Source: Flavobacterium aquiphilum (GTDB lineage: Bacteria; Bacteroidota; Bacteroidia; Flavobacteriales; Flavobacteriaceae). From it: a stretch of DNA of 64,000 nt. The position numbers and the translations under genes were made by a program. Below, in pieces: positions 40,175 through 61,019 of the stretch. The stretch lies in the NCBI RefSeq assembly GCF_027111335.1, contig NZ_CP114288.1, positions 2,914,001 to 2,978,000 of the forward strand. The letters are read 5' to 3'. Under the pieces are notes generated by a model. It ran no database searches. It was not told the DNA's origin and worked only from the letters and a program-made list of their open reading frames with translations. Within the stretch, counting starts at the first letter, position 1, and each line of letters opens with the position of its first letter.

Positions 40175-40190
40175 ATACTAAATCGTTTTA
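40175..40190 (-). promoter_or_regulatory. Operator-like 16-mer upstream of GH3 (site A)
   Basis: On the minus strand this reads TAAAACGATTTAGTAT, identical over 16 bp to site B at 59276-59291 and in the same orientation relative to its gene. The core TAAAACGATTTA is a near-palindrome centred on CG, the form of LacI-family operators. It lies 62 bp before the GH3 start. Confidence 0.6.
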
Positions 40191-40228
40191 CTATATAACA
40201 ATAAAATTTCAAAAAAGAATAAACAACC

Positions 40229-42130
40229 TTACCAAACTTGCAATTTCTCTATCTTATTTCCTTTGTTTTCAAAGGCTCCTGATGAAGGATTTATAGACGA
40301 CCGTTTATTACCGAAATAATCAATGTCAATTTTTAAGGGTGTTCCATCAGGGTTTTCAAATTTTTCTTTGGAAACAGTAGTTTTACCCAACAAATCAGTA
40401 TCAACACTTTTTGTTTTTAAACCTGAATCATCAGCCAATGTATAGGATATGAAGACTTTATTTCCTTCTTCAATCAATAAGAATTTAGGATCTACTGCTC
40501 TATTTTCAATAAAATTAACCTCTTTAAAATAAGGTATTGAGCCTCCATAATATATATTCCCATCAGCAGTTGCGGACAATTTTGCTTTTTTGTAATCGTT
40601 TAATCCAAAATTCTCATCTAGAGAATAACTTCCATCTTTCAATTCTTTTTTGGTTAAGAATATATTATTATAAAAACGGTCATCACCGGGAACAATTTCG
40701 GAAAGACCTTTAATTTCAGTTGAATGTCCCAAATGATAAGGCGTTGACCGGGTTTGATTTAATCCTAATTCAAAAGTCCCAACAATCAGATTATGAACAA
40801 TCGCACCGCCAGTTGACTGTAAATTAATTGCATTTTCCGAAAGCAAAATATTATTATCAATCAAATAAGGGCCGTGATTAACTTCAGCGAAAATATCCTG
40901 CCAACTATTGTTATACATTAAATTTCTTGAAACTCTCGTTCCTTGTGCCATCCAATCCAACCAAATTCCAGCCCCGTCAACCGAGTGGATTCGGTTATGG
41001 ATTATTTGTGTATCGATTGCTGCATGAAGTTTTATTCCACCCAATTCAGCTCCGCCAAATTGTTTCTTCTGATGGATATTATAAACATGATTATTTTCAA
41101 TTGTACAAAAAACAGCGCCCATGCTTCCGCAAATTCCGGCCTGTTCACAATTAAATATTTTGTTGTTTCTAACGATATGGGAGCCTATATTTTCTTTGTT
41201 CCAGCCATTTTTTAACACTCTAAAAATGACTTCGATATAGTGAATGTTTCCATCATTGAAAATGTTCCCTAAATCCTGTGTCCAAACATTATGACCTGTT
41301 TTTCTTTCCTTTCCCAAACTGATTCCCACGCATTTTGAATCGTGAATCGTATTGTTTTCGATAATCCATCCTTTGTTCCAATGTGTCGCAACCATACCCA
41401 CCTGCTCTGCCGTTGGCGCTCCCCATTGTGTTGCCGCTTGACTAAAATCAAATCCGGTGATAGTAATATAATTGATTCCTGGGGTTTCTGGATAAAAACA
41501 GGTTCTTCGGATGCTGACTTCGGTTAATTCCTTATTGGGGTTACGTTTTTGAAAATTAGCCCAAACTGTTGTTGTTTGGTCGTCACATTCGGTGTACCAC
41601 GTGTAAAGAGTGCTCTCTTTTTCGTTCACTTTTGCGTTAGGCACTGGATTAGTAACCAATTCCATTTTATCCGTTTCAAAAAGCGATTTCCCACCAATAA
41701 AAATATCACAAGTATGAATTTTTACAGGATTACTACACCAATCACCAGCTACGTAGTCTTTGAATGGATTGTAATCTCCAAAAAAAGAATTCGGAATCAC
41801 AATTTTCCAAACACCTTCTTTTACTTTTTTCCAACCTGTTAAAACTTCTGAGCCTTTGATTTCAACTTTTTCTCCATCGGCTGCCTTGTAAATAATTCGG
41901 TTAGAATCGTTTTCTCCACCGTTTTTCGGATTGATTCTTTCCCTATAAGTTCCGGCATGAACAATCACTACATCACCAGCTACAGCTATTTGGGCAGCAT
42001 GATTAATCGTTCTGAAAGGCTTCATTAACGTTCCTTCATTTGTGTCATTTCCTCTAACAGAAACATGTATCTCTTTTGCCGAAAGGCCAAATGTTATTAT
42101 AAGCCAAAATATTAATAATTTATATTTCAT
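40229..42130 (-). CDS. Exported right-handed beta-helix protein (DUF1565 / GH141-like)
   Basis: 633 residues. Signal peptide ends GLSAK (about residue 18). The N-terminus HVSVRGNDTNEGTLMKPFRTINHAAQIAVAGDVVIVHAGTYRE is the DUF1565 pattern that opens many parallel beta-helix carbohydrate enzymes. Later repeats such as IIENNTIHDSKCVGISL, IVRNNKIFNCEQAGICG and VSRNLMYNNSWQDIFAEVN build the helix coils. Such proteins include GH141 and polysaccharide lyases; no catalytic residues can be assigned here. It is in the glycan operon between the DUF4838 and GH3 genes. Confidence 0.75.
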   Translation of the reverse strand: MKYKLLIFWLIITFGLSAKEIHVSVRGNDTNEGTLMKPFRTINHAAQIAVAGDVVIVHAGTYRERINPKNGGENDSNRIIYKAADGEKVEIKGSEVLTGWKKVKEGVWKIVIPNSFFGDYNPFKDYVAGDWCSNPVKIHTCDIFIGGKSLFETDKMELVTNPVPNAKVNEKESTLYTWYTECDDQTTTVWANFQKRNPNKELTEVSIRRTCFYPETPGINYITITGFDFSQAATQWGAPTAEQVGMVATHWNKGWIIENNTIHDSKCVGISLGKERKTGHNVWTQDLGNIFNDGNIHYIEVIFRVLKNGWNKENIGSHIVRNNKIFNCEQAGICGSMGAVFCTIENNHVYNIHQKKQFGGAELGGIKLHAAIDTQIIHNRIHSVDGAGIWLDWMAQGTRVSRNLMYNNSWQDIFAEVNHGPYLIDNNILLSENAINLQSTGGAIVHNLIVGTFELGLNQTRSTPYHLGHSTEIKGLSEIVPGDDRFYNNIFLTKKELKDGSYSLDENFGLNDYKKAKLSATADGNIYYGGSIPYFKEVNFIENRAVDPKFLLIEEGNKVFISYTLADDSGLKTKSVDTDLLGKTTVSKEKFENPDGTPLKIDIDYFGNKRSSINPSSGAFENKGNKIEKLQVW

Positions 42131-42171
42131 TATAACTGATTATTAAAATATTATAAAACTATATTAACTTC

Positions 42172-44421: not shown

Positions 44422-44493
44422 TTTGTTTTGGTTAGTTTAAGCAAAAAAGATGAAGCTAATTGATATTCAATTCTACTTTATCTTTATTTAATT

Positions 44494-45785
44494 TTATTTA
44501 TTCAGATTTTCGAACATTACGATGGCAGTATATAAAACACCCGCTTCGCCTCTAAAAGTCCCCGAACCTCTTGGCTCATTTTTAATGGAATACCATTCGT
44601 AGAAGCCATTGTTGTCTTTCACGCGTTTCAACATGGGTTGCACTTCTCTGTAGGCTTCTTCCACATAACCGTATTTGATTAATTGCTGAATCGTTCTCGC
44701 TCCAAACCACGTCCAGTCACCTCCATTTTGGTAACTATAAATCGGGTTCATGATTTTATTTACGAAATAACCGTTTGGATAAGGCGGATAAAGCGTCAGA
44801 CCAATCGAAGGAGCACCAGCTTCTTTGACTCTTTTTACCATTTCATCCAATGAAGCTTTTACTTCTTTTTTGCTCAACAATCCCGCTTCCATTGCCACCG
44901 TTGTTCCTCCGAAATAAAAAATATTATTTTCGTCAAAATCAGCAGGAAAAGGGGAACCATTCAAATACAAGTGCGGAATAAATTTTTTCTTTTTGGCATC
45001 CCAAAGATAAGCACGACAGTTTTTGGCAACATCACTTCTGATTCTACCCCATTTTTGTTTACTGGCAGGCATCATTTCCATCAGATTATCCAAAGCGATA
45101 ACAAACATTGCATTATCATAAATATCACAAGCAATATGCGTGTTTCCATCAACATCAACTCCATAACCCGGTTCTGGCTGTACATCTCCCCATCAGCAGT
45201 TGTTGCTCCGGTAATTAATCCGTATTTTTTAGTGTATCGATGTTGCATGAGAAAATCCATTGCCCATTCCAGTCTTGTTGCAACGGTTTTATCACCCACT
45301 TTTTCATTCAAAATAGATTTATCACCTGTCAATTTAATGTATTTATAAACCGCTTGTATCAATGAAGACTCCTGATCGGTTTCTACTGTATTTTTATGTG
45401 CAGCATATCTTGGTTCCAATTTTGAATAGGAAAAATCGGTTTCTTCTTTTCCTATTTTCTCTTTTGGGGTATAACCGTCAATGATGTTTCCGTCCTCACC
45501 CTGCATTCTGAAAAATACCAAAAGATTTTCCTTTATGTCTTCCTTTTTCGTGACTTGTGCAGCCAATTCGATGAAAGTATTATAATCACGAATCCATACT
45601 TCGCGATAGCCATCCCCGGCATTTACTCCCGTTTTCATCACTTCCAACGCCTTATTTTTCACAAAAGGCATATAGGAATCATTTTTGATTTTATCTGCTA
45701 ATTTTTTATCAATAGAAGGCTTTGGCTGCGCTGTAGCTGTCAAAGCAAATGAAAATACTACTATTGAGGTTACTATTTTCTTCAT
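44494..45785 (-). pseudogene. Six-hairpin glycosidase gene broken by a single-base frameshift
   Basis: Two overlapping frames (45785-45081 and 45108-44494) together encode one 430-residue protein. Signal peptide ends TATAQ. The first frame runs well to GATTAD (codon ending at 45192) and then turns to non-homologous VMELMLMETRILLVI. Reading one base differently restores a W at the break and then GDVQPEPGYGVDVDGNTHIACDIYDNAMFVIALD. Adding one T on the minus strand between 45192 and 45191 (giving ATTADWGDVQPE) repairs the frame. VWIRDYNTFIELAA, VETDQESSLIQAVYKY and NGGDWTWFGARTIQQL place it in the (alpha/alpha)6 amylo-1,6-glucosidase-like group. The break is next to a run of four G, so a sequencing error is as likely as a true mutation. 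Flanking operon genes are intact. Confidence 0.85.
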
Positions 45786-45801
45786 ATTATTTCAATTTGA
45801 A

Positions 45802-48183
45802 TTAATTACTTGTACTCATTGATGGAGGCGGAGTTTTTATTCCCCATTTGGTATTAGGATTTACGCCCATATCAAAAATCAAGGTTCCTCCATCAGTTAG
45901 TTTTTTGCGGTCAATCCACACATTTTCATTTTTTTCGCCATTGAAAGAAGCTGATTGGATGTACCTGTTTTTCTTCGAATTATTTTTGGTTACAATTACC
46001 AATTCGTCACCCTTATAATATTTCTTGTCCAATTTGATTGTTACTTTATCAAATAACGGACTTCCGAATTGGAAGGTCGGATGCATCGCTGCGTGACCCT
46101 GAACATCAAACAATCCCATCGAAGCCATTACGTACCAAGCTCCCAATTGCCCTTGATCTTCGTCTTGTCCGTAACCGTAACCATGAAGCGGCTCCGCTCC
46201 GTAAAATTCGTCACAAATTGTACGTGACCATTTTTGCGTTAACCAAGGTTTGCCTGAATAATTGAATAAAAAGGACTGGTGCAAACAAGGCTGATTACCG
46301 TGGTTGTACAACATTTCCAATCCTGAGAAACTGTCGATTCCGTTTCCTCCGCCAAAAGTTGATTTTTGACTTACGTTAAATGTATTTTCCAAACGTTGGT
46401 TGAATAAATCCAAGCCCAAAACTTTTATTAAGCCCGCTGGATCTTGCGGAACATACCAAGTATATTGATAGCCATTTGCTTCCTGAAATCCTCTCCAAGC
46501 CTGCATTGGATCAAAATTTTCAATAAATTTCCCATCTTGGTATCTTGGTCGAATGAATTTGGTTTCGGGATCAAAGATATTTTTCCAATTTCCGGCTTGC
46601 TTCATCAATTTTTCATAATCTGCTTTTTTCCCCAATGCTTTTGCAAATTGCGAAACTCCGTAAGAAGTATAGGCAAATTCGAGTGTATGTGATGCCCCGA
46701 AGTTGAACTTCCATCCATTTGCCAATACAGTGTCTTTCGACGGAATATAACCGTCTTTTACAAAATAGGACAGATCATATTTCCCTGAACCAAATGGGCG
46801 ATTGTTGTAACCGGTTTCATTTTTATAAGCTATTTTATAAGCTTCATCCACGTTAAAATCACGAATGCCACAGTTATAAGTCGCGGCAATCATCAAGCCA
46901 AAACAGTTTGTTTGTACACCGTTCGAATGTGCTCCGGCGGCAACTCCGTCGTGCAACCAACCCGTTTCTTTAGCAAAATCAAGATTAGACTGAATGTATT
47001 GACTCAAATAATCAGGATACGCTAAAGCCCAAAGTTGTCCCAAATTCCAAAATCCGCCCCAAATTCCGTCTGTGTTGTAATGATTGTATTTTGGTTTTCC
47101 GTTTGAATCCAAAGGAATACGACCAATTTTACCGTCGTGTCTAGGATAACTTCCGTTGACATCACTTGCCAATCCACGTCCTAAAAGTGCATGGTACAAA
47201 CCAGTGTAGAATTTTACTTTATTAATGCTGTCTTTAGTTTCAACTTTGATTCGTCCTAATTTCTCATTCCATTTTTCATGTGCCGCAGTTCTTACTGCAT
47301 CAAATGTCTGACCTTCCGATTCGGTTTTCAAATTCAGTTTAGCGTTTTCAATACTTGTATAAGAAAGTCCAACTTGCATTTCGACAACTTCTCCTTTTTT
47401 GGTTGTGAAATTTATATACATTCCATTTCCAATTCCTTTGGTTTCTTTTTGACTATCGAAAGTTTTGTCTTCAATAAATGAACCGTACGATTCTGGCGTT
47501 TTGCTCATCTGAATAACAAAATACATTTTCACTCTTTTTTCTGGGTCGCAGAATTTCAAGTATTCAGGATACGTTTCTATAGTTCCTTCCAAAGTATTCT
47601 TGCCCGAAAGTTTCATTGTGGCTTCCGTCACACCGCTACTTTCACCTTCGCGATGTCCAATATCGAAAATGATGCGTGATTCCTTTGATTTCGGAAAAGT
47701 GTATCGATGAAAACCAACTCTTTCTGTAGCTGTTAATTCGGCTTTAATACCGTACTCTTTTAGAAAAACCGAATAATAACCAGGCTCTGCATGTTCGTCT
47801 TTTTTGTCAAAAGTCGAACGATAACCTGTTTCCGGCTTTTCCAAAGTTCCAGGCGTAGTTTGTAATTTTCCTGTTATCGGCATCGCTACCAATCCACCGA
47901 TTTGAAATTCGTGAAAATGTCCGAAACCTTCAATAGAATTATGACGATTGTCGTAACCACAGGGTTCCCAGCTTCCGCCACTTCCGTAAGCATTAGTGTG
48001 AGGAGCTAATTTAGCCATACCAAAAGGCACAGAAGCCGGTGTGTAAAAAAACCAACGCCCATGTACCGAACCAATTTGTGGATTAACCCAAGAAGCAGCA
48101 TTAAAATCATCTTTTTTCTTCGAACAAGAAAAAATAGAAATGCTCATTAACAGCAGTAAAATTCCTTTTGATATTGTCTTCAT
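45802..48183 (-). CDS. GH92 family lipoprotein with Gln at the general-acid position
   Basis: 793 residues. Lipobox SIFSC (Cys20) shows a lipoprotein. GH92 features: PQIGSVHGRWFFYTPASVPFGMAKLAPH, EGFGHFHEFQIGG, DGIWGGFWNLGQLWALAYP, and QDEDQGQLGAWYVMASMGLF near the C-terminus, which keeps the Asp/Gln base region. In the segment that usually reads GNEP, this protein has HGNQPCLHQ (Gln631), whereas the second GH92 in this operon has GNEP (Glu601). Loss of the acid Glu is known to me from GH92 enzymes that cut mannose-1-phosphate diesters, where no protonation is needed. Substrate here is therefore uncertain. It lies 13 bp after GH38 and 16 bp before the broken glycosidase. Confidence 0.9.
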   Translation of the reverse strand: MKTISKGILLLLMSISIFSCSKKKDDFNAASWVNPQIGSVHGRWFFYTPASVPFGMAKLAPHTNAYGSGGSWEPCGYDNRHNSIEGFGHFHEFQIGGLVAMPITGKLQTTPGTLEKPETGYRSTFDKKDEHAEPGYYSVFLKEYGIKAELTATERVGFHRYTFPKSKESRIIFDIGHREGESSGVTEATMKLSGKNTLEGTIETYPEYLKFCDPEKRVKMYFVIQMSKTPESYGSFIEDKTFDSQKETKGIGNGMYINFTTKKGEVVEMQVGLSYTSIENAKLNLKTESEGQTFDAVRTAAHEKWNEKLGRIKVETKDSINKVKFYTGLYHALLGRGLASDVNGSYPRHDGKIGRIPLDSNGKPKYNHYNTDGIWGGFWNLGQLWALAYPDYLSQYIQSNLDFAKETGWLHDGVAAGAHSNGVQTNCFGLMIAATYNCGIRDFNVDEAYKIAYKNETGYNNRPFGSGKYDLSYFVKDGYIPSKDTVLANGWKFNFGASHTLEFAYTSYGVSQFAKALGKKADYEKLMKQAGNWKNIFDPETKFIRPRYQDGKFIENFDPMQAWRGFQEANGYQYTWYVPQDPAGLIKVLGLDLFNQRLENTFNVSQKSTFGGGNGIDSFSGLEMLYNHGNQPCLHQSFLFNYSGKPWLTQKWSRTICDEFYGAEPLHGYGYGQDEDQGQLGAWYVMASMGLFDVQGHAAMHPTFQFGSPLFDKVTIKLDKKYYKGDELVIVTKNNSKKNRYIQSASFNGEKNENVWIDRKKLTDGGTLIFDMGVNPNTKWGIKTPPPSMSTSN

Positions 48184-48196
48184 ATTTATTCCAATT

Positions 48197-51100
48197 TTAT
48201 TTCTTCAATAAAAATTCTGAAACTCCACTTCCAACGATACTAATTTCGGAGGAACTTGTTTTTTCGTCTCCAGTCGTTACATCAATAATAGATTTTGGTA
48301 CTAATGATTTCCAAATAAATTTGGTTTCTTGAGCAGAGGATTCCGGATTGAACAAACGCATTAATATTGTACCATCTTCGTTCGGAGTTAGACTAGTTAC
48401 CACAATTTTTGAGTTTGTTAATTCAAAAAGATTCGAAGGCAATTTCACGTCGTCTTTAATCATAATTCCAATCAAAGGTTGTGTAAAATCCGCAGCCGCT
48501 TTTTCTATATCTTCTGCGTTTACTGCAGCGTGAGGACGAAGCGCATATCTGAAACTTACGATTCCTTCCTGATCTGCTTTATAATTGGTGTGCCAATAAT
48601 TATTCATCACATAACTGAACCAGGTTGCAGTTGGTTGACCCGTTTTTTTCCATTCTTTGTGATTACCTTCAACGACTTTTCTTTCATCAATCATATTGCT
48701 TGGTTCAACCAAAGGCGATTCTAATAATAACCACTGAATTCCCTTGTCTCCAGCAGAAACATCCACCCATCTTCTTCCGTATAAATAATCCATATTCGAT
48801 CCTGGCAATTGATCTTTTAGGAACTCCATCGAGCCATAACCGGCATCAAGAGTGGTTTTGGTAAATTGCTCATTGAATGGATATCCAAAATGAACACCCT
48901 CTTTGTTTCGGATGGCTTTTTTATCCAAAACATTTTGGATCATTACTTCGTCGCTTCCACTGTAAAGCGAAATAATACGCTCCAATTTATTGGCTCCAGG
49001 AGCATCTGAAGTAATTGAAACTGTTGTAATAACTGGTCCTTTTTCAATAATTTTTATCTGAACATTTCCGTTAGTTTGAGCTTCTTCAGGATTCAATCCC
49101 GGTACATACCAATAACTATTTAATCCTTGTTTTTTGAAATCACCCGCATAATTGAAATCCGAAACGGTTTTCAAATTCGTGATGCTTCCATTGTTTTTGT
49201 CCCAAGAGAATTCAATTTTTCCATTCGATAATGAATTTTCACTCAAAACAAATTTGCTGGACAAAGCAGGCGCTACTTTATTTGTAATTTCATACGAAAC
49301 AGATCCAAAAGCAGGAACGTCTTTAGCGATAAAAGCCTGTTTTCCGTTGTTTAATTTTTGCAAAGGCAAAAGATTTCCATTAGCATCTTTCACTGATTTT
49401 CCGTCAACTGATGATTCAATAATCACTAATCCAGTTCTTTTCCATGAAGAAGTATTGAAAACGGCAATTTTTTTTGATTGTGAATTACTTATATCCTCAA
49501 ACAAATTTTTCTCCAGCTCATTAATCTGCTTGTCGCCATCAAGTAAATACTGTTTTTTAATACACCACTGTTCAGTTACAAAAGGGACATCCGGTTCGGT
49601 TGTACTATTATGTGCTCCCCAGGTATGCTCATGAAACAGGAGAATATTTCTCCAGGCTTCGTAAAATTTTTTTTCGTTATATTTTTTAGAATCTAGCATC
49701 GTATAAAGCGTTGTCAATTGCTGTAAACGCAAACTGTTGATTCTGTTTTTTCCTTCTTCCTCAGCGGTCGAAATAGCTCCGTCTTCCCAATAAGGTGTCA
49801 TATCCCCTTTTACGGTTGGGATTTTATCACCATATTTTTTTTCGAAAGTTTCAAATAGTTTCTCCGTAGTGTTCAGAACCAATTTTGGAGATGCATATTT
49901 CTCATTCCATTTTTTTACAAAATCAGAAATATTAGGTTCAATTGGCCCATTATCAGCAACGATATTAAAGCGCCATTGCACCATGTCATAAGGATAATTA
50001 TTTGCGGTCAGTTCGTTCAAATAATCAGCGATTTTTTTAGAACCTCTTTCGAAAATAGCGCCAGGTTGCATGCCGTGCCACGACGAATATCCTTTGGCTC
50101 CAGCCCAAAACAGAACTTTTTCCTGACCCGAAGGAGAAGTCCACCAAACTGGTTTGTCTCCCCAATTCTTCAAAAAATGACCTGCCCTATCTCCCAAATA
50201 AGGATGGTCTAATCCCATAAAATTAGAACCTATCGAAAAGTATTTCACGCCTCCTTTTGAAAGAGCCGTTACGGTTGACCATGCAAATCCGGGGATATCC
50301 GAAATCATTGCTCCGTTTATTTTAAATCCAAATTCCTTACGCAATTTCGCCGCATAATCCGTGTAATGAAACATCTCTTCGGGTTGACTCATGCCGGTAA
50401 GCATGTTTGCATACAAAGCAGAAAGGAAAATATCGCCATTTTTCACAGCCGCAACAAATCTCTCTTTTTTCGTTGGAGTAGCTACTTTCAGATAATTTTC
50501 AACAGCCCAGATTGATTCAATATTCCATTTGAATTTTGCCTCTTCGGGATATGATTTTGTTTTTTCAATCATTTCGAGGGCATCATCAATATTTTTATTG
50601 TGAATTTTCAAAACTTCAGGCTGTAAATGTGAATAACCAATATCAGTATGCGCATGATGAATCAAATGAAGTTCCCTGTAAATAACAGGTTTTACAACAT
50701 AAGAATCGTTGATATACGTTTTATTCCCAATGGTCGCGAGCACTTTTACTTTTTCTTCTTTACTCACTGCTGCAACCGGAACATCAAAACTGTTCATTCC
50801 ATTTTTAACCGTATAAATGTGATTTTCTTTATCATTAATTTTCACCTTTACAGTTTCTTCTTTTCCAAAATGCAAAACAGTAAGAGCTAAAGATTGTGTT
50901 CCATCTTTTAAAAGAAAAGGCATCGGAACAACTTTTACATTTTCCTCAAAAGGAAATTTGAAAGCCATGAACCAATCCGTGCTGTTTTGTTTCTGACCTA
51001 CAATTTTGATGCGAACGGATTGACCCGGTTTTACTTTATTTACTGGAAGACGCAAAAAAGCATATCCTTGTGAATCACGTGCACCGTCCAACTTTGTTTG

Positions 51101-51547
51101 TTGAAACACTAGTGCCGAACCATCTTCAGCTTTGAAAATCCAATTTGGTTTTTGATTTTTAGGCAAAGTTGTGAAAGTCAAAAGCTTTTTGTCATTGACA
51201 TATAAATCATAATTTCTGTCACCACTACTGGTCCCTGTAGAATGTCCGGCTACAAATCCGAAATAAACATACTCGCCTTTAGTCCCTTTTGGAACTGGAG
51301 CTGTTTCCCATTCAATGACTTTATTACCATCTGTATTTCTGGTCAAAAGCGCTACAGTGGCGTAATCCTGAAAAGCCGAATTATAGCTAATATTTTCTCC
51401 GCTTATTTCTTGAGAGTAACCATTAATCCAATTGATTTTTCCGAAAAAAGGAGCTTCATTTTGTGCAAGGATTGACTGCGTTAAAAAGCCGATAAAAAGA
51501 GCAATAGATAACCGGACAATGTTTCGTTTTTTTAAATTCATATTCAA
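48197..51547 (-). CDS. GH38-family alpha-mannosidase
   Basis: 1116 residues. A signal peptide ends SILAQ (about residue 29). A beta-rich N-terminal part (to about 285) precedes the catalytic domain, which opens with ELHLIHHAHTDIGYSH. His300 and Asp302 match the zinc-binding HxD of GH38. ISDIPGFAWS carries the candidate nucleophile Asp, and LLFHEHTWGAHNS is a further metal/active-site segment. The C-terminal half holds the beta-sandwich domains typical of GH38. Retaining alpha-mannosidases of this family trim N-glycan mannose. It is in an operon with phosphoesterase and GH92 genes. Confidence 0.92.
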   Translation of the reverse strand: MNMNLKKRNIVRLSIALFIGFLTQSILAQNEAPFFGKINWINGYSQEISGENISYNSAFQDYATVALLTRNTDGNKVIEWETAPVPKGTKGEYVYFGFVAGHSTGTSSGDRNYDLYVNDKKLLTFTTLPKNQKPNWIFKAEDGSALVFQQTKLDGARDSQGYAFLRLPVNKVKPGQSVRIKIVGQKQNSTDWFMAFKFPFEENVKVVPMPFLLKDGTQSLALTVLHFGKEETVKVKINDKENHIYTVKNGMNSFDVPVAAVSKEEKVKVLATIGNKTYINDSYVVKPVIYRELHLIHHAHTDIGYSHLQPEVLKIHNKNIDDALEMIEKTKSYPEEAKFKWNIESIWAVENYLKVATPTKKERFVAAVKNGDIFLSALYANMLTGMSQPEEMFHYTDYAAKLRKEFGFKINGAMISDIPGFAWSTVTALSKGGVKYFSIGSNFMGLDHPYLGDRAGHFLKNWGDKPVWWTSPSGQEKVLFWAGAKGYSSWHGMQPGAIFERGSKKIADYLNELTANNYPYDMVQWRFNIVADNGPIEPNISDFVKKWNEKYASPKLVLNTTEKLFETFEKKYGDKIPTVKGDMTPYWEDGAISTAEEEGKNRINSLRLQQLTTLYTMLDSKKYNEKKFYEAWRNILLFHEHTWGAHNSTTEPDVPFVTEQWCIKKQYLLDGDKQINELEKNLFEDISNSQSKKIAVFNTSSWKRTGLVIIESSVDGKSVKDANGNLLPLQKLNNGKQAFIAKDVPAFGSVSYEITNKVAPALSSKFVLSENSLSNGKIEFSWDKNNGSITNLKTVSDFNYAGDFKKQGLNSYWYVPGLNPEEAQTNGNVQIKIIEKGPVITTVSITSDAPGANKLERIISLYSGSDEVMIQNVLDKKAIRNKEGVHFGYPFNEQFTKTTLDAGYGSMEFLKDQLPGSNMDYLYGRRWVDVSAGDKGIQWLLLESPLVEPSNMIDERKVVEGNHKEWKKTGQPTATWFSYVMNNYWHTNYKADQEGIVSFRYALRPHAAVNAEDIEKAAADFTQPLIGIMIKDDVKLPSNLFELTNSKIVVTSLTPNEDGTILMRLFNPESSAQETKFIWKSLVPKSIIDVTTGDEKTSSSEISIVGSGVSEFLLKK

Positions 51548-51599
51548 TATTTTTATAATTCCCTCATTTAATTATAACTAATCTTTGATATTTCAACTT

Positions 51600-54047
51600 T
51601 TAATCATCATCGTCCTTTTTATCGTTCAGACTAACAAAAGCAGCTCGTCTGGGACCTGGAAATGCAACTGCATCCCCTTTAATAGCGTACCAAAGCAATT
51701 CTGTAAATTCCAGATCAGGAATGGCATCAACTTTTGAGAAATCGTAAGTCTCTGATTTTTGCTGCCATTTATTCATTGCTATATTCTTTTCGTTCAAATC
51801 AATATTTGCGGGAACCGACTTGAATGGTGTAAAATCGGGTTTTGATGTAAAGCTATTCCACAAAGGAGTCGAAGCGGCATCATGTTGCGACATTGGCGGT
51901 AATCCCAAAACCAACTCTATCGTACGTAAAAACGAAGTCGAGGAATACATCGTATGATCCACAAAATTCCGTTTTACATACGGTCCTGCTAAAAAAGCGG
52001 TGCTTCTATGTGCATCTACATGATCAGTTCCACTTTGAGCATCATCTTCTACAATTAAAACCAAACATTCGTTCCAAATAGGGCTTTTACTTAAATATTC
52101 GACTAAAAGTCCTGTAGCCAAATCATTGTCTGCAACGTGTGCATTTGGCGTGGGTCTTCCTTTTCTTAAGCCTTCGGTGTGGTCGTTCAGAAAACGGATT
52201 GTATTAAATCGAGGAACTTGCTTAATTGCTACCAACGAATCAAAATCTTTTTTCCATTGTTCGAAACGGTTTACATCTTTTTCTGCCAATTCGACCCAAG
52301 TATTGAAACTTTTGCAATAATGATTTTGCAAAACAGCTATTGTCGGCTTTTTTTCAATAATAAATTCGCCATAAGTTCTGTAACTTACATTGCCACGTTT
52401 GCAAGCATCCCAAATAAACCCTGCTTTATTGTTGGCAATCGGTCTGCGGCCTTCTCCTGGATAATCCCAAGCACGACCGTAGCAGGTAGGCCACATTTTT
52501 TCAAGATAATCTGTTGCATAAGCGCCAAGTGACCAATTATGACCATCAGCACTGACTTCGGCATCAACATAAAAATTATCCAAAAGCACAAAGTCTTTCG
52601 CCAACTTGTGCTGATTGGGTGTTATTTTTTCGCCAAACATAACTAGCGAAGGATCTCCATTTCCTTCTTTTACATCACCCATAACCTGGTCGTAGGTTCG
52701 GTTTTCTTTGATAACATAAAACACATATTTTATTGGGCTTACATCCCCAACTTTCATTGGAACGGGATTTCCAACATCATTATGCGCTTTCAGTTCTTTT
52801 TCTTTTGAATACGGCGAATTTTGATAAACCATTTTAGTATAAGCGCCCAATAAATCTGTAGATGGTTGGTCGATAATGCTTAATGTCCCTTTGAACAATT
52901 CACCAATCGAATGCACCGATTTGGGTTTGGAAGCGTCCTCTGCCCTATATTGTAAATTATATCCTTTTGTATAAGGTGTTGGTGCCTGAAGATTGGTCAT
53001 CGGAACAAATCCTTTTCCGTTGGCTACAAATATTTTCTTGTTCACAATCCTAACATTCGTAGGATACCAGCCAGTAGGAATAAATCCAAGCGATTTGCTT
53101 TTACCAGAATGACTTACATCAAAAACAGCAAGACAATTATTATCAGCATTGGCAATATAAAGTTGTTTTCCATTATCGCTCAAACTCAAAGAATTGGTAG
53201 TTGATCCCGCCGGTGCATCAGGATATAAGGCAGCATTAAGTGTTTCAACGATATTACGTGTTTTTCTATCAATGACTGAAACCGAATTATCATTAGAATT
53301 GGCAACAAATAGAAAATCATTATTTTTTGAAAGTAGAATCTCATTTGGGTGGCTTCCTACAGGAACTGAAGCTATAAATTCTTCTTTTATAGTATCATAA
53401 ACCAATAATTTTTCGCAACCCCAACAACTCACATACAATTCTTTTGAATAGGGAGACAAAACACAGGTAAAGCCTTCACCGCCCAAAGGAAGTTGCTTTT
53501 TAACTTTTTCGGTTTTCAAATCCATCACATAAAGTGAATTATTGTCTTTGGTCACCACATAAAGCAACTGATTTTTGTCGTCAACATCAAAGCCTGCAGG
53601 CGAAATTCTATTTGGCCATTTTTTGCCTAAAGTAATGGTATCGGCAAGTTTGAGTTTATTACCAATCAAATCGATTCGGTAAATAACATTGTCATTCCCT
53701 CCCGAAGCGTACAATTGTTTTTCGTTTGAACTAAACTTCAATCCGTACCAACTCGAAGGAATAATAATACTATCGACTTGTTTTTCCTTTTTAGGGTCAA
53801 TAAGCTGAATATAATGCTTCCCTAAACCGTTATTAGTTACTGCAATCCATTTTTTTGATTTACTAACAGCAATATTCAATGGCAAATCGCCCAAAGGTAA
53901 AGACCTGCCAACATTTGTAATTGACCAGCCATTAGGCAATAAAACGGTTTTGACTTCTTTTTGCAGTTGAGTTTGCGCTATTAAACCATTCCCAAAAAAG
54001 AAAGAAAACAAAGACGCAAAAACTATTTGAACAGAACGATTTTTCAT
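51600..54047 (-). CDS. YncE-like beta-propeller fused to a PF04185-type phosphoesterase
   Basis: 815 residues with a signal peptide ending GLIAQ. Residues about 40-380 form a seven-bladed-propeller-like repeat (DKKNQLLYVVTKDNNSLYVMDLKT, NDFLFVANSNDNSVSVIDRKT, GKQLYIANADNNCLAVFDV). The second half is an alkaline-phosphatase-superfamily phosphoesterase: VIKENRTYDQVMGDVKEG carries the ENRxxD motif with the candidate Thr nucleophile, AEVSADGHNWSLGAYATDYLEK follows, and the metal site VEDDAQSGTDHVDAHRS is near the end. It may release phosphate from phosphorylated sugars or lipids. In this glycan operon a phosphomannan role is attractive but inferred. Confidence 0.9.
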   Translation of the reverse strand: MKNRSVQIVFASLFSFFFGNGLIAQTQLQKEVKTVLLPNGWSITNVGRSLPLGDLPLNIAVSKSKKWIAVTNNGLGKHYIQLIDPKKEKQVDSIIIPSSWYGLKFSSNEKQLYASGGNDNVIYRIDLIGNKLKLADTITLGKKWPNRISPAGFDVDDKNQLLYVVTKDNNSLYVMDLKTEKVKKQLPLGGEGFTCVLSPYSKELYVSCWGCEKLLVYDTIKEEFIASVPVGSHPNEILLSKNNDFLFVANSNDNSVSVIDRKTRNIVETLNAALYPDAPAGSTTNSLSLSDNGKQLYIANADNNCLAVFDVSHSGKSKSLGFIPTGWYPTNVRIVNKKIFVANGKGFVPMTNLQAPTPYTKGYNLQYRAEDASKPKSVHSIGELFKGTLSIIDQPSTDLLGAYTKMVYQNSPYSKEKELKAHNDVGNPVPMKVGDVSPIKYVFYVIKENRTYDQVMGDVKEGNGDPSLVMFGEKITPNQHKLAKDFVLLDNFYVDAEVSADGHNWSLGAYATDYLEKMWPTCYGRAWDYPGEGRRPIANNKAGFIWDACKRGNVSYRTYGEFIIEKKPTIAVLQNHYCKSFNTWVELAEKDVNRFEQWKKDFDSLVAIKQVPRFNTIRFLNDHTEGLRKGRPTPNAHVADNDLATGLLVEYLSKSPIWNECLVLIVEDDAQSGTDHVDAHRSTAFLAGPYVKRNFVDHTMYSSTSFLRTIELVLGLPPMSQHDAASTPLWNSFTSKPDFTPFKSVPANIDLNEKNIAMNKWQQKSETYDFSKVDAIPDLEFTELLWYAIKGDAVAFPGPRRAAFVSLNDKKDDDD

Positions 54048-54068
54048 GGCTTCGTTTTTAATCTACGA

Positions 54069-55508
54069 TTATTCAATTTCTTCTAAAATCTCCATTTTAT
54101 TAATGGATAATTCCTTGCCACTATTCAAATCAGAATTCCATTCTCTTTCAATTTCTTCCAGACTTTTTCCTTTGGTTTCAAACAGTTTCTTTTTAGCATA
54201 TAAAAAAGAAAGAATACAGAAGAAGGAGAAAATAAAAAACGTAGTAGCAATTCCCAATCCGTCTCGCATCACAGGAAACAATAGATTCACTATATAATCG
54301 GAAACCCACATCGTCATAATGCAGACTGATAAAGCGGTTCCTCTTATATGAGTTGGAAAAATTTCTGTCGATATAACAAATTTTAATGGCCCAAGCGAAA
54401 AAGCAAAAAACAACAGGAATAAAATAATACTAAAGAGCATGAACCAACCCGTAACATTCATTAGGAAACAAAAAGCGGTTAATGCCAATGCAAAAGCGGC
54501 ACACAAAGAACCTACAATGTATAATGGTCTGCGACCCCAACTATCCACTTTTGAAATGGCAATAAAAGTAAAAAGCACATTGGCAGATCCCAATATTACC
54601 TGATAAAACAGCGCATCACTGGTAACAATTCCTGCCGATTTCAAAATTGTTGGCCCGTAAAAAATCACGCCATTGATTCCGCTAAATTGTGACAAAGCTG
54701 TAAGTACCATTGCCAAAATCAATAATTTACGAAGTGGCAATTGTAATAACTCTTTAATTCCGCCTGATTTTTGACCAGCCATTTCTTTGATGGAATCCAA
54801 CTCCAAACGAGCCGTTTCTTCGCCATTTATTTTTGTCAAAATATCCAATGCCTTAACGTTTTCCCCGTATTGTACCAACCAGCGTGGGCTTTCGGGAACT
54901 ATTAATAATAACAAACAAAACGCCAAAGCCGGTATAACCCCAACGATGAACATTCCGCGCCAAACATTTTCAACAAACATCCAATGCACCAAACCAGTTC
55001 CTTCTCCAGCATTGGCCGAAGCGTATCGCTGCAAAAATAAATTACTGATATAAGCCGCCAAAACTCCAACGGTTATGGCAAGTTGATAAAAAACAACCAA
55101 CTTTCCTCTCTTTTGCGAAGGCGCCACCTCGGAAATATAAAGCGGTGACACATTCGAAGCCACACCCACACCCATTCCTGCAAGGACACGAAAAGCAATC
55201 AATACTACATAAACTTCCGAAAACGCGAATCCAATAGCACTGATTAAAAACAAAACAGCAGAAACAAACAGTACTTTCCTTCTTCCTATTTTATCGCTCA
55301 TGTAACCCGAAAACGCAACACCTACAATACACCCTAATAAAGCGCAGGACACAAATAATCCTTCCTGACCTGATGATAAGCCATACTGCAATTTCAATGG
55401 TTCAATAATTCCACTTACTACGGCCATATCAAAACCGAATAAAAAGCCTCCTAAAGCTGCAATCAGCGTTATAAGCGATATAAAATAATTAGTTCTTTGT
55501 CTTTTCAT
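54069..55508 (-). CDS. MFS sugar porter (sugar:H+ symporter-like)
   Basis: 479 residues, about 12 membrane segments. Sugar-porter signatures are clear: GFLFGFDMAVVSGIIEPL in TM1, DKIGRRKVLF after TM2, VPESPRWL after TM6, and DSWGRRPLY in the second half. It probably imports mannose or another hexose released by the operon's glycosidases across the inner membrane; the substrate is inferred from context. A site related to the shared operator lies 27 bp upstream, so the gene may have its own promoter inside the operon. Confidence 0.93.
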   Translation of the reverse strand: MKRQRTNYFISLITLIAALGGFLFGFDMAVVSGIIEPLKLQYGLSSGQEGLFVSCALLGCIVGVAFSGYMSDKIGRRKVLFVSAVLFLISAIGFAFSEVYVVLIAFRVLAGMGVGVASNVSPLYISEVAPSQKRGKLVVFYQLAITVGVLAAYISNLFLQRYASANAGEGTGLVHWMFVENVWRGMFIVGVIPALAFCLLLLIVPESPRWLVQYGENVKALDILTKINGEETARLELDSIKEMAGQKSGGIKELLQLPLRKLLILAMVLTALSQFSGINGVIFYGPTILKSAGIVTSDALFYQVILGSANVLFTFIAISKVDSWGRRPLYIVGSLCAAFALALTAFCFLMNVTGWFMLFSIILFLLFFAFSLGPLKFVISTEIFPTHIRGTALSVCIMTMWVSDYIVNLLFPVMRDGLGIATTFFIFSFFCILSFLYAKKKLFETKGKSLEEIEREWNSDLNSGKELSINKMEILEEIE

Positions 55509-55535
55509 AATAGTTTTGGTTCTTGGTTAATAGGT

Positions 55536-55550
55536 TACTAAATCGATTTT
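55536..55550 (-). promoter_or_regulatory. Operator-like site upstream of the sugar porter (site C)
   Basis: On the minus strand this reads AAAATCGATTTAGTA. It shares the 10-bp core CGATTTAGTA with sites A and B and matches them at 13 of 15 positions. Its TAAATCGATTTT core is a CG-centred palindrome with one mismatch. It is 27 bp before the MFS start, in the 92-bp gap after the ROK/isomerase gene. Confidence 0.5.
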
Positions 55551-55600
55551 TTATTTAGCATAAAAAAATGGTTGCTTTATTGTTTCTCGAAAAAATGTAG

Positions 55601-58267: not shown

Positions 58268-58271
58268 TTTT

Positions 58272-59024
58272 CTAAATCGTACGTTTAATTTCTATTGTAT
58301 AGGTAAACCAATCATTTCTATAATAACAGATATTATATTCGATTGGTTTTCTGGCCGTGTCGAGTACTACACGCTTTCTTTCAAGAACAGGCTGATCTTT
58401 TTCAATTTTCAAATTACTAGCAATTTTCTTACTGGCAGCAATGGCTTTGAGCTCTTCCTGTGAATACACGGGAACCACATTGTATTTATTATCCAATATT
58501 TCATATAGTGGGGTTTCAAAATTTTCATCAAGAGAAAGACCTATTCGAGGATGAAAATAGGATTCAAAATAAACCATTGGACTATCGTCAATGCTTCGGA
58601 TTCGTTGTAAAAACATGACTTCGTCTCCTTCGTTTATTTGCAAATGTTTAGCAACTTTGGCACTTGCAGGAACAATTTCAGCATGCAATGAAAGATTTTT
58701 GAATTCCAAGCCCAAATCCTCCATCTCGTGGGTGAAACTCATCCAATTATTAAGATTGGTGCTTATCCGATTTTGAGTAACCCTTGTTCCAGAACCTTTT
58801 TTTCTTTCCAACAATTTTTCATTCACCAAAATAGCAATAGCCTGACGAAGCGTATTGCGGGAAATTCCCCAACGTTTTGCCAAATCGACTTCTTTTGGAA
58901 ATAATTCACCTCCTTTAAATTCCGGAAGTTTAATAAGTTCACGTAATTGTTCTTCCGCTTGTTTATGCAAAGGAATTTTACTGTCATGATCTAGTAACGG
59001 TATATTTTTTAAATGTTCATACAT
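58272..59024 (-). CDS. GntR/HutC-family regulator with UTRA domain
   Basis: 250 residues. An N-terminal winged helix (about 20-85; PLHKQAEEQLRELI, PKEVDLAKRWGISRNTLRQAIAIL, GSGTRV) is followed by a UTRA effector domain (about 95-245; AEIVPASAKVAKHLQINEGDEVMFLQRIR, MVYFESYFHPRIG). Such proteins bind a sugar or sugar phosphate and usually repress. It is first in the minus-strand glycan operon, divergent from the PNGase F gene, so it likely controls both. A TAnnTTTG-like box (CAAATGTA on the plus strand, 59029-59036) ends only 5 bp before the ATG, which would mean an almost leaderless transcript. Confidence 0.92.
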   Translation of the reverse strand: MYEHLKNIPLLDHDSKIPLHKQAEEQLRELIKLPEFKGGELFPKEVDLAKRWGISRNTLRQAIAILVNEKLLERKKGSGTRVTQNRISTNLNNWMSFTHEMEDLGLEFKNLSLHAEIVPASAKVAKHLQINEGDEVMFLQRIRSIDDSPMVYFESYFHPRIGLSLDENFETPLYEILDNKYNVVPVYSQEELKAIAASKKIASNLKIEKDQPVLERKRVVLDTARKPIEYNICYYRNDWFTYTIEIKRTI

Positions 59025-59119
59025 ATGACAAATGTAACATTTTTATTTTATCAAAAAAATTATTTTAAGTAAATATAAATAATTGATATATAGCATATTT
59101 TAGTAATACATTTATTTCC

Positions 59120-59131
59120 TAAAACGTTATA
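59120..59131 (+). promoter_or_regulatory. Weak operator-like site in the divergent region (site D)
   Basis: TAAAACGTTATA differs at one position from the CG-centred palindrome TAAAACGTTTTA. It matches site B at the first seven bases but poorly beyond. Confidence 0.3.
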
Positions 59132-59259
59132 GAGAAATAGTTGATTTTCAGAAAATAAAAATCAAAAAACTCCTTTTCAAGTCATTTTAAAATGATATGT
59201 TCATATTAAAACTTGAATAATTATATACCTTTCTCCTACTATCATATGCACTTATTTAA

Positions 59260-59267
59260 TATATTTG
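59260..59267 (+). promoter_or_regulatory. -7 promoter box of the PNGase F gene
   Basis: TATATTTG matches TAnnTTTG exactly. It lies 78 bp before the ATG and 8 bp before operator-like site B, so the start point would fall next to the site. The -33 element is not obvious. Confidence 0.5.
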
Positions 59268-59275
59268 TTTTTTAA

Positions 59276-59291
59276 TAAAACGATTTAGTAT
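59276..59291 (+). promoter_or_regulatory. Operator-like 16-mer upstream of the PNGase F gene (site B)
   Basis: TAAAACGATTTAGTAT is identical to site A upstream of GH3 and sits 54 bp before the ATG, just downstream of a -7 box. A bound protein here would block initiation. Its CG-centred core suggests a LacI-family rather than GntR-family binder; no LacI gene is in the window. Confidence 0.6.
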
Positions 59292-59345: not shown

Positions 59346-61019
59346 ATGAAAAAAAAAGTATTAACCCTGTTGACCGTTTGTGTAATTACTTTGTCATTTG
59401 CACAAAAAATACCGACAGCAATTAAAGTCACCTACCTAAGAACATCGAACGGAAAAGTGACTGAAAATCAAGACCCGATGTTTTTGTTTGCTTCGAAGGA
59501 TTTAAGTTTAATAACAACTGACAAAATCCTGCAGCAAAATGCAAACTTCCCATTTGAACAAACTTTTATCGATTTTAACACCCAAACGATTTCACAATGG
59601 GCACAATTGAAAGGAGGCAAATCTATTCTCAGTAATGATAATGAAGCTTTAGGTAAACAAAAATTTGAATTCAGCTCCGAAACCAAAAAAATCCTGAATT
59701 ATACTTGCAAAAAGGCAACAACCTTTGTCAACTCAAATAAAATTGAAATTTGGTACACCACTGAATTTGGATTGAAAGGAGGGCCTAGTGTTTTGGGACA
59801 AAATTTAGGTTTGGTTCTGGAAACCATTCGTAACGGAAATTCGACTTTGACAGCTACAAAAATTGAAATTTTAAAGACCACTCCTACCCTTCTTGTAATT
59901 CCACAGGTACAAGCTGTTGATCAATTGACTTACAAAGATTTATTATGGAAAAGTCGCTTTGTAAATATTCCGGTTTTTACCAAAGAACAAATTCATTTTG
60001 TTTCGGATGCCAAATCAAATGACAGCATTTATAGATTTGCAAACGGAACTGTAATTGTTCGAAAAATTAAATTCCCTGAAATCAAAAGAGGAAGTTCCAT
60101 TTATGCAGATGTAACCGAGCAATCAAATGGTGATGCTTATGACAGAACCGGTTCGGTTTTTATGATTCCGATGGACAAACAAAAATCTTTTCTTGACGGA
60201 TTAAAAAATGGTATAAAAACCTTACCTGTTTATGAAAATGGAAATGGCAAGAAATACCAAGGCGTTGTTTCTACCAACGAATACACCTCATTATTAGAAA
60301 TGATGCGCTTTTTCACTCCTTTTGGAGTAAAGCATTTCAACTATTTACAACTAAAAAACAAAGTTTGGCAGGATAGTGTTATCTATCGTCAAGACATTTC
60401 ATTATTACAGCCAAAACTAAGTGATCAAGAGGTTTATATTGGAATGTTTATCGGTAATTATGATGCAGGCGGGCACAAAGCGAGTTTAAACATTACGATT
60501 CATGAAGGTGAAGACAACAATACCAAAGCTGATTTTATTTTGCCTCTTTTCAATACGCTGAATGTAATGGAAATGGCGGGACAAGAATATTCAACAATGT
60601 TTGATAACGAAAAAGGGCTCGAAATGACATTTGAAGTGCCTGATGGTTATAGAAATTTCAAATTGAGTTACACTACAACCGGTCACGGAGGTTGGGAAAA
60701 TGGTGATGAGTTTTTGCAGAAAAAAAACACCATTTTGATTGATGGAAAAGAAATTTTTGGATTCACTCCTTGGCGCACCGACTGTGGTTCATACCGATTG
60801 AGTAATCCTGCTTCGGGTAATTTTGGTAACGGATTGTCATCTTCTGACGAAAGCCGATCCAACTGGTGCCCGGGAACAACGACGAATCCAAATTTGATTG
60901 ATTTAGGAAATCTTTCTCCTGGAAAACATACCATCAAAGTATCTATTCCGCTTGGAAAACCTGAAGGGAGTAGCTCAAGTGCGTGGAATGTTTCGGGATT
61001 TTTGATTGGGGAGAAATAA
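59346..61019 (+). CDS. PNGase F-like peptide:N-glycosidase with a GLPGLI-like N-terminus
   Basis: 557 residues with a signal peptide ending LSFAQ (residue 19). Residues 20-200 resemble the GLPGLI family (IDFNTQTISQWAQLKGGKSILS, ILNYTCKKATTFVNSNKIEIWYTTEFGLKGGPSVLGQ). The C-terminal half resembles PNGase F: IGMFIGNYDAGGHKASLNITI, TTTGHGGWENGDEF, FTPWRTDCGSYRL and SRSNWCPGTTTNPNLIDLGNLSPGKH. The WCPG segment matches the one I recall from the Elizabethkingia enzyme. The enzyme would cut the amide between Asn and the first GlcNAc, freeing whole N-glycans for the mannosidases. It is the first gene of the plus-strand side of the locus. Confidence 0.87.
   Translation: MKKKVLTLLTVCVITLSFAQKIPTAIKVTYLRTSNGKVTENQDPMFLFASKDLSLITTDKILQQNANFPFEQTFIDFNTQTISQWAQLKGGKSILSNDNEALGKQKFEFSSETKKILNYTCKKATTFVNSNKIEIWYTTEFGLKGGPSVLGQNLGLVLETIRNGNSTLTATKIEILKTTPTLLVIPQVQAVDQLTYKDLLWKSRFVNIPVFTKEQIHFVSDAKSNDSIYRFANGTVIVRKIKFPEIKRGSSIYADVTEQSNGDAYDRTGSVFMIPMDKQKSFLDGLKNGIKTLPVYENGNGKKYQGVVSTNEYTSLLEMMRFFTPFGVKHFNYLQLKNKVWQDSVIYRQDISLLQPKLSDQEVYIGMFIGNYDAGGHKASLNITIHEGEDNNTKADFILPLFNTLNVMEMAGQEYSTMFDNEKGLEMTFEVPDGYRNFKLSYTTTGHGGWENGDEFLQKKNTILIDGKEIFGFTPWRTDCGSYRLSNPASGNFGNGLSSSDESRSNWCPGTTTNPNLIDLGNLSPGKHTIKVSIPLGKPEGSSSSAWNVSGFLIGEK

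Follow-up and report, generated by a model that had tools for sequence, protein, structure and literature searches.

A predicted LacI-type operator shared by genes of an N-glycan utilisation superlocus in Flavobacterium aquiphilum, and a candidate regulator encoded within it

Described regulators of comparable systems

In the portion of a LacI-family survey considered here, operators are described as even palindromes of 16-22 nt with a central CG, lying mostly 30-140 bp upstream of gene starts, and autoregulation is common; that text deals with one Bacteroidetes group (named Bacteroides), and the word start 'Flavobacter' is absent from it (PMC4052901). The system reported below resembles those of the survey in its CG-centred even palindrome, its association with sugar catabolism genes and a candidate regulator that joins a LacI helix-turn-helix (HTH) to a periplasmic-binding-protein-like sensor, but its regulon would differ from theirs in covering PNGase F, N-glycan glycosidases and susCD. 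Alpha-mannoside and N-glycan loci with alpha-mannosidases and SusCD are likewise regulated in Bacteroides thetaiotaomicron, although the proteins concerned, ManR (BT2103) and HTCS_Man, belong to the GntR and hybrid two-component families; in the sections of that paper used here, an HTCS_Man motif is built of two directly repeated 16-bp sites, 5 bp apart, and has no CG-centred palindrome (PMC3878776). According to the relevant excerpt of a further report, AlfR2 of Lactobacillus casei represses a core-fucosyl GlcNAc-Asn cluster for use of the N-glycan core, which encodes a fucosidase, a glycosylasparaginase, an MFS permease and a ROK protein (PMC6960285). AlfR2 is a local regulator, as the LacI protein would be here, but it belongs to the GntR family, controls a small cluster and is nearer to the GntR protein of our locus.

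No title among the best-ranked open papers describes a regulon of this kind, in a search whose coverage lies outside most subscription journals. For N-glycan use of the PNGase F type, the analysis names a regulator candidate in Flavobacterium, a genus related to the organism that supplies a standard glycobiology enzyme. LacI control of this locus would differ from control in Bacteroides, for which GntR and hybrid two-component regulators are described.

Sites in the window and across the genome

We analysed a 64-kb stretch of the genome (the window), in which the 16-mer TAAAACGATTTAGTAT occurs without mismatch at 40175-40190 (minus strand) and 59276-59291 (plus strand) and nowhere else. The former is 62 bp from the start, at 40112, of a gene encoding a GH3 glycosidase (37932..40112, minus strand; PF00933/PF01915), which is followed by a GH92 alpha-mannosidase-type gene (35649..37910, minus strand; PF07971). 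The latter is 54 bp from the start, at 59346, of the gene for the peptide:N-glycosidase PNGase F-II (59346..61019, plus strand; PF22252, PF09112, PF09113), after which come a GH29 fucosidase (61391-62722; PF01120) and an M28 peptidase (62838-63806; PF04389). The corresponding predicted LacI-type operators are 20-mers at 40175..40194 (minus strand) and 59272..59291 (plus strand), with scores of 21.0 and 22.5 in a matrix built from other genomes only. A match in 13 of 15 positions at 55536-55550 (minus strand) lies 27 bp before the start, at 55508, of an MFS sugar porter gene (54069..55508, minus strand; PF00083). Judging from strand and spacing, this gene presumably leads a transcription unit that would continue through 51600-54047, 48197-51547 (GH38-type) and 45802-48183 (GH92) and onward (PF01074, PF07971). 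The operator predicted there, at 55535..55554 (minus strand), has a weaker core with one mismatch (matrix score 20.0; 15.8 bits in model R1). Finally, the segment 59120-59131 reads TAAAACGTTATA, with one mismatch to the core, and forms part of a weak predicted operator (59116..59135, minus strand; matrix score 16.8) upstream of a gene for a GntR/UTRA protein (58272..59024, minus strand; PF00392, PF07702), which is probably a second regulator and possibly itself a target of LacI.

All coordinates given for these sites in the first-pass annotation hold, as do its distances of the two exact 16-mers from the GH3 and PNGase F genes, which we confirmed from open reading frames and sequence. Both its 13/15 porter match and its weaker 59120 site were also recovered, the case for the porter site being weaker than it had stated. 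The GH3 and PNGase F-II distances fall within the usual LacI range, and that of the porter just outside it.

With up to three mismatches, the 16-mer has 12 matches in the window, compared with a shuffle mean of 2.67 (0 of 100 shuffles reached 12), and its 12-mer core has 7 with up to one mismatch, compared with 3.04 (2 of 100 shuffles reached 7); three of these seven cores lie outside N-glycan genes. The window alone argues only moderately against chance. The strength of the motif is in its clustering in the genome and its conservation beside lacI genes, both beyond the window.

The exact core TAAAWCGWTTTA occurs at 10 places in 5.05 Mb, six of them within 66 kb (2,954,179-3,020,624; binomial p 1.0e-9). 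Without the two sites from which the motif was taken, 4 of 8 exact cores still fall in the 43 kb that follow the window directly (p 3.6e-7). There is no genome-wide excess of the exact core (10 places, compared with 17 for a reversed control pattern), and what is non-random is the location of the places, not their number. The genome scan proposed in the first-pass annotation, which we ran with exact cores, thus gave a cluster in the N-glycan superlocus.

A matrix was derived from 80 of 87 distinct lacI-flanking operators, all from other genomes (alignment A1); sites that looked secondary or weak were left out by eye (L067:8582, L069:9823, L088:9886, L093:9890, L114:11065, L119:9890 and L124:11081). 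At a threshold of at least 8 bits it gives 18 hits in the 79.1-kb superlocus, where 1.6 are expected from the 8 hits in 400 kb of evenly spaced DNA of the same genome. At least 14 bits are reached by 11 hits in the superlocus, compared with 3 in the 400 kb, and 10 of the 11 are intergenic; the site at 106609 (counted, like all such positions past 64,000, from the first letter of the window) has a good score yet lies within a GH20 gene. In the genome scan with model R1, the lacI operator ranks first, PNGase F-II second, GH3 third and the porter ninth among the 150 candidates scored from 8463 first-look candidates, after both strands of one place were merged by hand. Our genome-level counts are based on exact patterns, model R1 and the local matrix. 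Exact CTAAAWCGWTTTAG is absent from this genome, and all of its sites therefore differ a little from the consensus. The proposal that the motif is common to three transcription units survives in its substance, as several units share it, but not in its extent, since the predicted regulon has eleven sites of at least 14 bits in the superlocus.

A lacI gene in the superlocus and conservation of the operator

A lacI gene is located at 2,983,637-2,984,650 of the genome (minus strand, 337 aa), 5.6-6.7 kb past the end of the window. Its product combines a LacI HTH (PF00356, 1.9e-15) with a periplasmic-binding-protein-like sensor (PF13377, 5.3e-27; L052:13637-14650). The gene is found beside susCD, between susC and GH20/PNGase F genes, inside the same ~80-kb N-glycan superlocus. 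Cores flank it on both sides, including its own promoter side, where the operators form a pair with cores 13 bp apart. The earlier suggestion of an operator of the LacI kind agrees with these data, whereas the unlinked second regulator that had been postulated gives way to a linked gene just past the window edge. This LacI-family regulator very probably has the motif as its operator, a site of ~20 bp (TTACTAAAWCGWTTTAGTAA); for LacI, operator and N-glycan regulon taken jointly, we put the probability at about 0.88.

The recognition segment of this LacI is SVTTVSFVLN. The 10 other LacI proteins of the genome have R or K at the position where LacIs of the SVTTVSFVLN type have F, and no exact core is present within their ~3-kb loci. 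The strain has one LacI of this operator type; clade B, one of three related branches (A, N-glycan/PNGase; B, mannosidase PUL; group C), is absent from it.

We retained 80 lacI loci from 108 relatives, which are close kin and not independent: L070 and L071 are on one contig, and six genomes contribute two loci each, one of A and one of B. By their lengths, the contigs L313 and L315 are apparently those of L059 and L062 again and thus not independent of them. In 80 of 80 loci a core with up to one mismatch lies after lacI and before susC, within 350 bp. Of 79 loci, 78 likewise have a core in the 200 bp preceding lacI, the exception (L128) having an over-extended start. By comparison, 1.8% of random 190-bp stretches from the same loci hold a core, a rate that would be roughly double for the wider susC-side interval. 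The even palindrome keeps its central C in 91 and its central G in 89 of 91 susC-side sites from these loci.

Across the genus, 42 of the 49 exact CTAAAWCGWTTTAG occurrences in genomes bearing such a LacI are located within 6 kb of one. Presence of the 14-mer also follows LacI in 150 genomes (28 of 31 with LacI, 14 of 119 without; p 9e-17), but the difference lacks significance once the comparison is confined to the 28 genomes of at least 5 Mb (20 of 22 and 4 of 6; p 0.19), which indicates that genome size confounds the comparison; we dropped presence or absence of the 14-mer as stand-alone proof. Group C LacIs, at 41-45% identity, retain SVTTVSFVLN, and the operator is present in 5 of the 6 stretches examined. 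Computation shows that recognition helix and operator go together.

Upstream of genes in the window, conservation was as the first-pass annotation anticipated for GH3, PNGase F-II and the 59120 site, and failed for the porter. In the nearest relative (G096), an exact core is found at the matching place upstream of the GH3 orthologue and the weak site (there at 32891) is kept in position upstream of the gntR orthologue, while the porter orthologue has no upstream core with up to one mismatch. Among clade-A genomes that have PNGase F-II and its upstream DNA, 7 of 7 show the core 51-97 bp ahead of the gene, namely 5 of 5 named loci, the genome of the window and G096. Not counted were L056 (truncated) and L064, with just 14-15 bp upstream, and L060, rejected as an informative case as the gene runs off the sampled DNA and the site is not upstream of it; the sampled stretches of L059, L062 and L084 contain no PNGase F-II. 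In genomes without a clade-A LacI, the core was upstream of PNGase F-II homologues in 0 of 28 cases, and these homologues are also more diverged (59-70% identity).

Predicted control and competing readings

In the scheme that we infer, a LacI dimer would read the CG-centred palindrome through SVTTVSFVLN and act as the local, autoregulated master switch of an N-glycan utilisation regulon of ~80 kb. Predicted operators serve its own gene (the pair), susCD, PNGase F-II, the GH3-GH92 unit and a GH20 gene; the sugar-porter unit is a probable further target, and a long gene run from 88436, including GH35, beta-mannosidase-type GH2 and GH92, is also predicted to be one. A sugar freed from N-glycans, perhaps a mannose derivative to judge by the neighbouring genes, would bind the sensor domain and release the operators, and the genes for cutting, uptake and digestion would be switched on together.

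Chance matches in AT-rich DNA would account for the modest enrichment of the core in the window, but this reading is extremely improbable given the clustering in the genome, the hits of an independent matrix relative to 400 kb of own DNA and the conservation in all 80 loci. Chance is refuted for the set of sites; it may still account for individual weaker ones, for example 55535 or 106609, the latter intragenic. Reading of the operators by the GntR/UTRA protein of 58272-59024 is only slightly less improbable. It is the sole regulator recognised where the locus falls within the window, has a weak site upstream of its gene and belongs to a family that, in the parts of the reports considered, governs mannose (ManR, PMC3878776) and core-fucosyl N-glycan use (AlfR2, PMC6960285). 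G096 does carry a gntR orthologue, but the open reading frames of the 80 operator-bearing lacI loci contain no homologue at E<=1e-15, and even palindromes centred on CG are characteristic of LacI regulators in the survey portion cited above (PMC4052901). We rejected GntR as the reader of the motif, in line with the doubt already raised in the first-pass annotation.

With LacI as the reader, the sign of control is likely to be repression. At the lacI promoter, the sequence TAnnTTTG, which we take to be a -7-type promoter box, begins 27-29 or 17-19 bp beyond the start of the core (81 occurrences in 78 loci), and at GH3 an exact copy starts one base past the end of the operator core. An operator just upstream of this strongly conserved box at lacI, where polymerase would need to sit, makes repression the most likely mode. 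The same LacI could instead act on the same operators as an activator or dual regulator, which these promoter arrangements render unlikely. In its favour, the box is almost absent near susC-side operators (4 occurrences in 80 loci), and these operators lie farther out, at 205-239 bp from the susC start in the 11 clade-A loci, with an additional one at 39 bp in L055, unlike simple promoter occlusion; repression thus suits lacI and GH3 better than susC. Moreover, the part of a report used here describes CcpA, a sequence relative with solved structures, as repressor or activator (PMC2697999).

A further reading, compatible with LacI as the reader and put forward tentatively, is that LacI paralogues with like helices share operators, so that genomes with two of them obey both sensors. 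The same operator also flanks the LacIs of clade B and group C, SVTTVSFVLN occurs in group C as in A and SISTVSFV[IL]N in most B proteins, and A and B occur together in six named genomes and G096, possibly in more, as 80 of 108 relatives were kept. Against this, the HTH also distinguishes A from B (74% identity over residues 4-29, compared with 61% in the sensor domain), and with one such LacI the question is moot in the window's strain. One operator code with several sensors, in which branches A, B and C keep an identical or closely similar helix and the palindrome while the proteins diverge, is accordingly a conjecture that we hold at less than even odds. If it is true, genomes with A and B would sense different pieces of one glycan by different proteins over a shared operator set. 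In the window's strain, A-type operators at 88168 and 88353 precede a same-strand run that holds beta-mannosidase-type GH2 and GH92 genes, and the relatives of these genes in G096 are behind the susCD of B; under a common operator code, the strain would show a regulon merger that this code had eased.

Exact cores and matrix also point to distant candidate members of the regulon, a GH18 gene and an FAA-hydrolase/amidohydrolase unit. The idea that the unlinked GH18 is an N-glycan-type endo-glycosidase was dropped, its best solved relatives being chitinases and an N-acetylglucosaminidase. The FAA-hydrolase/amidohydrolase unit resembles oxidative fucose catabolism.

The LacI gene and its probable operators in the N-glycan superlocus

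The first-pass annotation had implied an unlinked regulator for the LacI-type operators of this region, but a LacI gene is in fact linked to them. One of the 11 LacI-family genes in the genome (a single contig of 5,054,800 bp, in which the window spans 2,914,001-2,978,000) encodes a 337-aa protein at genome positions 2,983,637-2,984,650, between susC and GH20 within the N-glycan superlocus of about 80 kb, and is flanked by copies of the short CG-centred core TAAAWCGWTTTA. On the susC side an exact core lies ~27 bp past the lacI stop codon, with a one-mismatch core farther on, and upstream of lacI two cores stand at 55 bp (exact) and 68 bp (one mismatch). The two upstream operators overlap (L052:14701-14733), their cores being 13 bp apart. 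A sequence check reproduced the sites reported earlier in the window, in both position and distance: the exact 16-mers before GH3 (40175-40190, 62 bp) and PNGase F-II (59276-59291, 54 bp), the porter site (55536-55550, 27 bp) and the weak site (59120-59131).

Domain searches of the window identified GH92, GH3, GH120-like, DUF4838, a further GH92, GH38-type, MFS sugar porter, ROK-domain, GntR/UTRA, PNGase F-II, GH29 and M28 genes. Beyond the window edge, the scanned ORFs of the superlocus include SusD, SusC, the LacI-family gene, GH20, a second, short PNGase F adjoining GH20 (396 aa, L052:17358-18548), GH29, GH2 and GH110-type genes, and farther on another GH29, altronate-dehydratase-type, GH35, beta-mannosidase-type GH2, GH92, GH20 and ROK genes, together with an asparaginase-2 family gene that is presumably of the glycosylasparaginase type. 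In the left part of the window, positions 12543-22760 form a single very long ORF (3405 aa). At 44494-45785, two overlapping ORFs of 204 and 234 aa match opposite ends of a single 430-aa ORF of the nearest relative's genome, G096 (89% and 84% identity), so a frameshift, or else an error in the sequencing, appears to have divided the gene; the G096 protein matched no Pfam family at E<=1e-6.

Conservation of the operators among relatives

A search with the superlocus LacI found 108 relatives, and 80 loci were kept: 11 in clade A (75-83% identity) and 69 in clade B (61-66%). Their carriers are named Flavobacterium, except for one [Flexibacter] strain with two loci and one Flavobacteriaceae bacterium. 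With up to one mismatch allowed, a core stands in the 200 bp upstream of lacI in 11/11 clade A and 67/68 clade B loci; in the single locus without one, L128, the lacI start is erroneously over-extended. The 350 bp following lacI, ahead of susC, contain a core in 11/11 and 69/69. By comparison, 1.8% of random 190-bp stretches from the same loci contain one. These loci are related to each other and are not independent samples. In the aligned flanks the operator and a lacI-side box, TATATTTG, are among the best-kept blocks, and T- and A-rich runs are kept too. The overlapping operator pair is present in 10 of the 11 clade A loci, L063 being the exception, and because the operators overlap, independent binding by two dimers seems unlikely.

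Among 150 genomes of the genus, GH3 and the porter have close orthologues in G096 alone (82% and 89%, respectively); the runners-up reach 50% and about 40%. In G096 the operators are kept before GH3 and PNGase F-II (exact cores), gntR and susC (one mismatch each) and as the lacI pair (one exact, one with a mismatch); no operator was found upstream of its porter orthologue. The core precedes PNGase F-II by 51-97 bp in all seven clade A genomes in which both the gene and its upstream DNA are present (L055, L057, L058, L061, L063, G096 and our own). It was found upstream of none of 28 homologues from genomes lacking a clade A LacI, two of which have a clade B LacI, these homologues also being more diverged (59-70% identity). 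Nor was a core with up to one mismatch present within 250 bp upstream of the short PNGase F in its three clade A orthologues (L055, L056, L064).

Further clade A operators precede a GH29 gene in L061 and, in L060 and L063, a gene of 115 aa. Others stand before an AraC-type gene, which Pfam identifies in L058 (2300-3166); in L060, L061, L063 and G096 it was assigned from its size and position, and the gene at L252:18142-19008 was assigned on that basis too. The L252 protein had no match among the ORFs of the joined 116-kb region of our strain, hinting that this region may lack the AraC-type regulatory layer.

Genome-wide and genus-wide distribution

The exact core occurs at 10 places in the genome compared with 17 for a reversed control, and thus shows no overall enrichment. 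Six of the 10 fall in 66 kb of the N-glycan locus (binomial 1.0e-9), and without the two motif-defining sites, four of the remaining eight lie within the next 43 kb (3.6e-7). For a test independent of our genome, we aligned 80 of 87 distinct lacI-flanking operators from other genomes and made the resulting matrix symmetric. At 8 bits or more it matched 18 sites (14 intergenic) in the 79.1-kb superlocus whereas 400 kb of control sequence, sampled at even intervals from the same genome, yielded 8 (3 intergenic); at 14 bits or more the numbers were 11 (10 intergenic) and 3 (1 intergenic). When 150 of 8463 candidates were scored with R1, a sequence-only operator model, lacI ranked first among distinct places, PNGase F-II second, GH3 third and the porter ninth, the superlocus holding six of the top nine.

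Of the 150 genomes of the genus, 31, ours included, encode LacIs matching at E<=1e-60. The exact 14-mer CTAAAWCGWTTTAG, which is absent from our own genome, occurs in 42: 28 of the 31 with LacI against 14 of the 119 without (p 9e-17). A reversed control 14-mer showed no association with LacI (p 0.69). Genome size confounds this presence, since among the 28 genomes of at least 5 Mb the contrast is 20/22 with LacI against 4/6 without (p 0.19). Placement, unlike presence, is not confounded by size, and 42 of the 49 14-mers in LacI genomes are no more than 6 kb from the LacI gene.

Four exact cores lie outside the superlocus. One is 32 bp upstream of a GH18 gene 1.9 Mb away, where there is a good operator (L258:6043-6062); among solved structures, chitinases are nearest to this protein. 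The others are 79 bp upstream of an FAA-hydrolase gene with an amidohydrolase gene next to it downstream, 20 bp upstream of an M28 gene that follows GH97, and one base ahead of an ATG that is a possible true start for an endonuclease/phosphatase-family gene. The edge of the G096 N-glycan locus carries an FAA-hydrolase gene and three genes size-matched to the lactate-utilisation genes of our strain; no core with up to one mismatch was found there, and regulon membership of these genes is only suggestive.

Probable recognition, mechanism and signal

Judged by sequence, the motif is best read as a real operator within a known LacI kind, with an interesting twist in its shared code. Regulons in which an autoregulated LacI protein reads CG-centred palindromes are well known (PMC4052901). 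GntR-type ManR and HTCS regulators are described at Bacteroides mannoside and alpha-mannan loci (PMC3878776), and in L. casei a GntR repressor controls the use of core-fucosyl GlcNAc-Asn (PMC6960285). The F. akiainvivens PNGase paper (PMC12381499), when searched by term, has "regulat" once and no word beginning with "laci", "locus" or "pul". Among the best-ranked open papers of our literature search, no title concerned this regulon.

The recognition helix reads VSVTTVSFVLN in clade A (VSITTVSFVLN in some) and VSISTVSFV[IL]N in most of clade B. The two clades agree at 74% over residues 4-29 and 61% in the sensor domain, making the HTH no more than somewhat better conserved. In group C, whose members share 41-45% identity with the query, the proteins have [IV]SVTTVSFVLNGK, and an operator of at least 12 bits is found in the same stretch in five of six stretches examined, including a 14.9-bit site about 1.9 kb beyond LacI in L311; in the exception, L312, the DNA ends shortly past the gene. 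The other ten LacIs of our genome have R or K where superlocus-type LacIs have F, and their ~3-kb loci contain no exact core and, in two cases, a one-mismatch core.

On the lacI side, TAnnTTTG, which we take to be the Bacteroidota -7 consensus, begins 27-29 or 17-19 bp past the core start (81 occurrences, 78 loci), a spacing that places the operator over the upstream promoter region. Before GH3 an exact TAnnTTTG begins one base after the core, and at both genes the arrangement would fit repression by occlusion. On the susC side a box of this kind is hardly ever close by, with 4 occurrences among 80 loci, and the occlusion model would suit susC less well than lacI and GH3. The one clade B locus scanned combines LacI with mannose-6-phosphate-isomerase-type, GH97, SusCD, beta-mannosidase-type GH2 and GH92 genes, which points to a mannose-related signal; any effector of the clade A LacI is a guess. 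Within the GH20 coding region, ~0.7 kb past its start, lies another high-scoring operator (L054:10609-10628), with two more before the gene; the intragenic site may be a roadblock, a looping site or a chance match.
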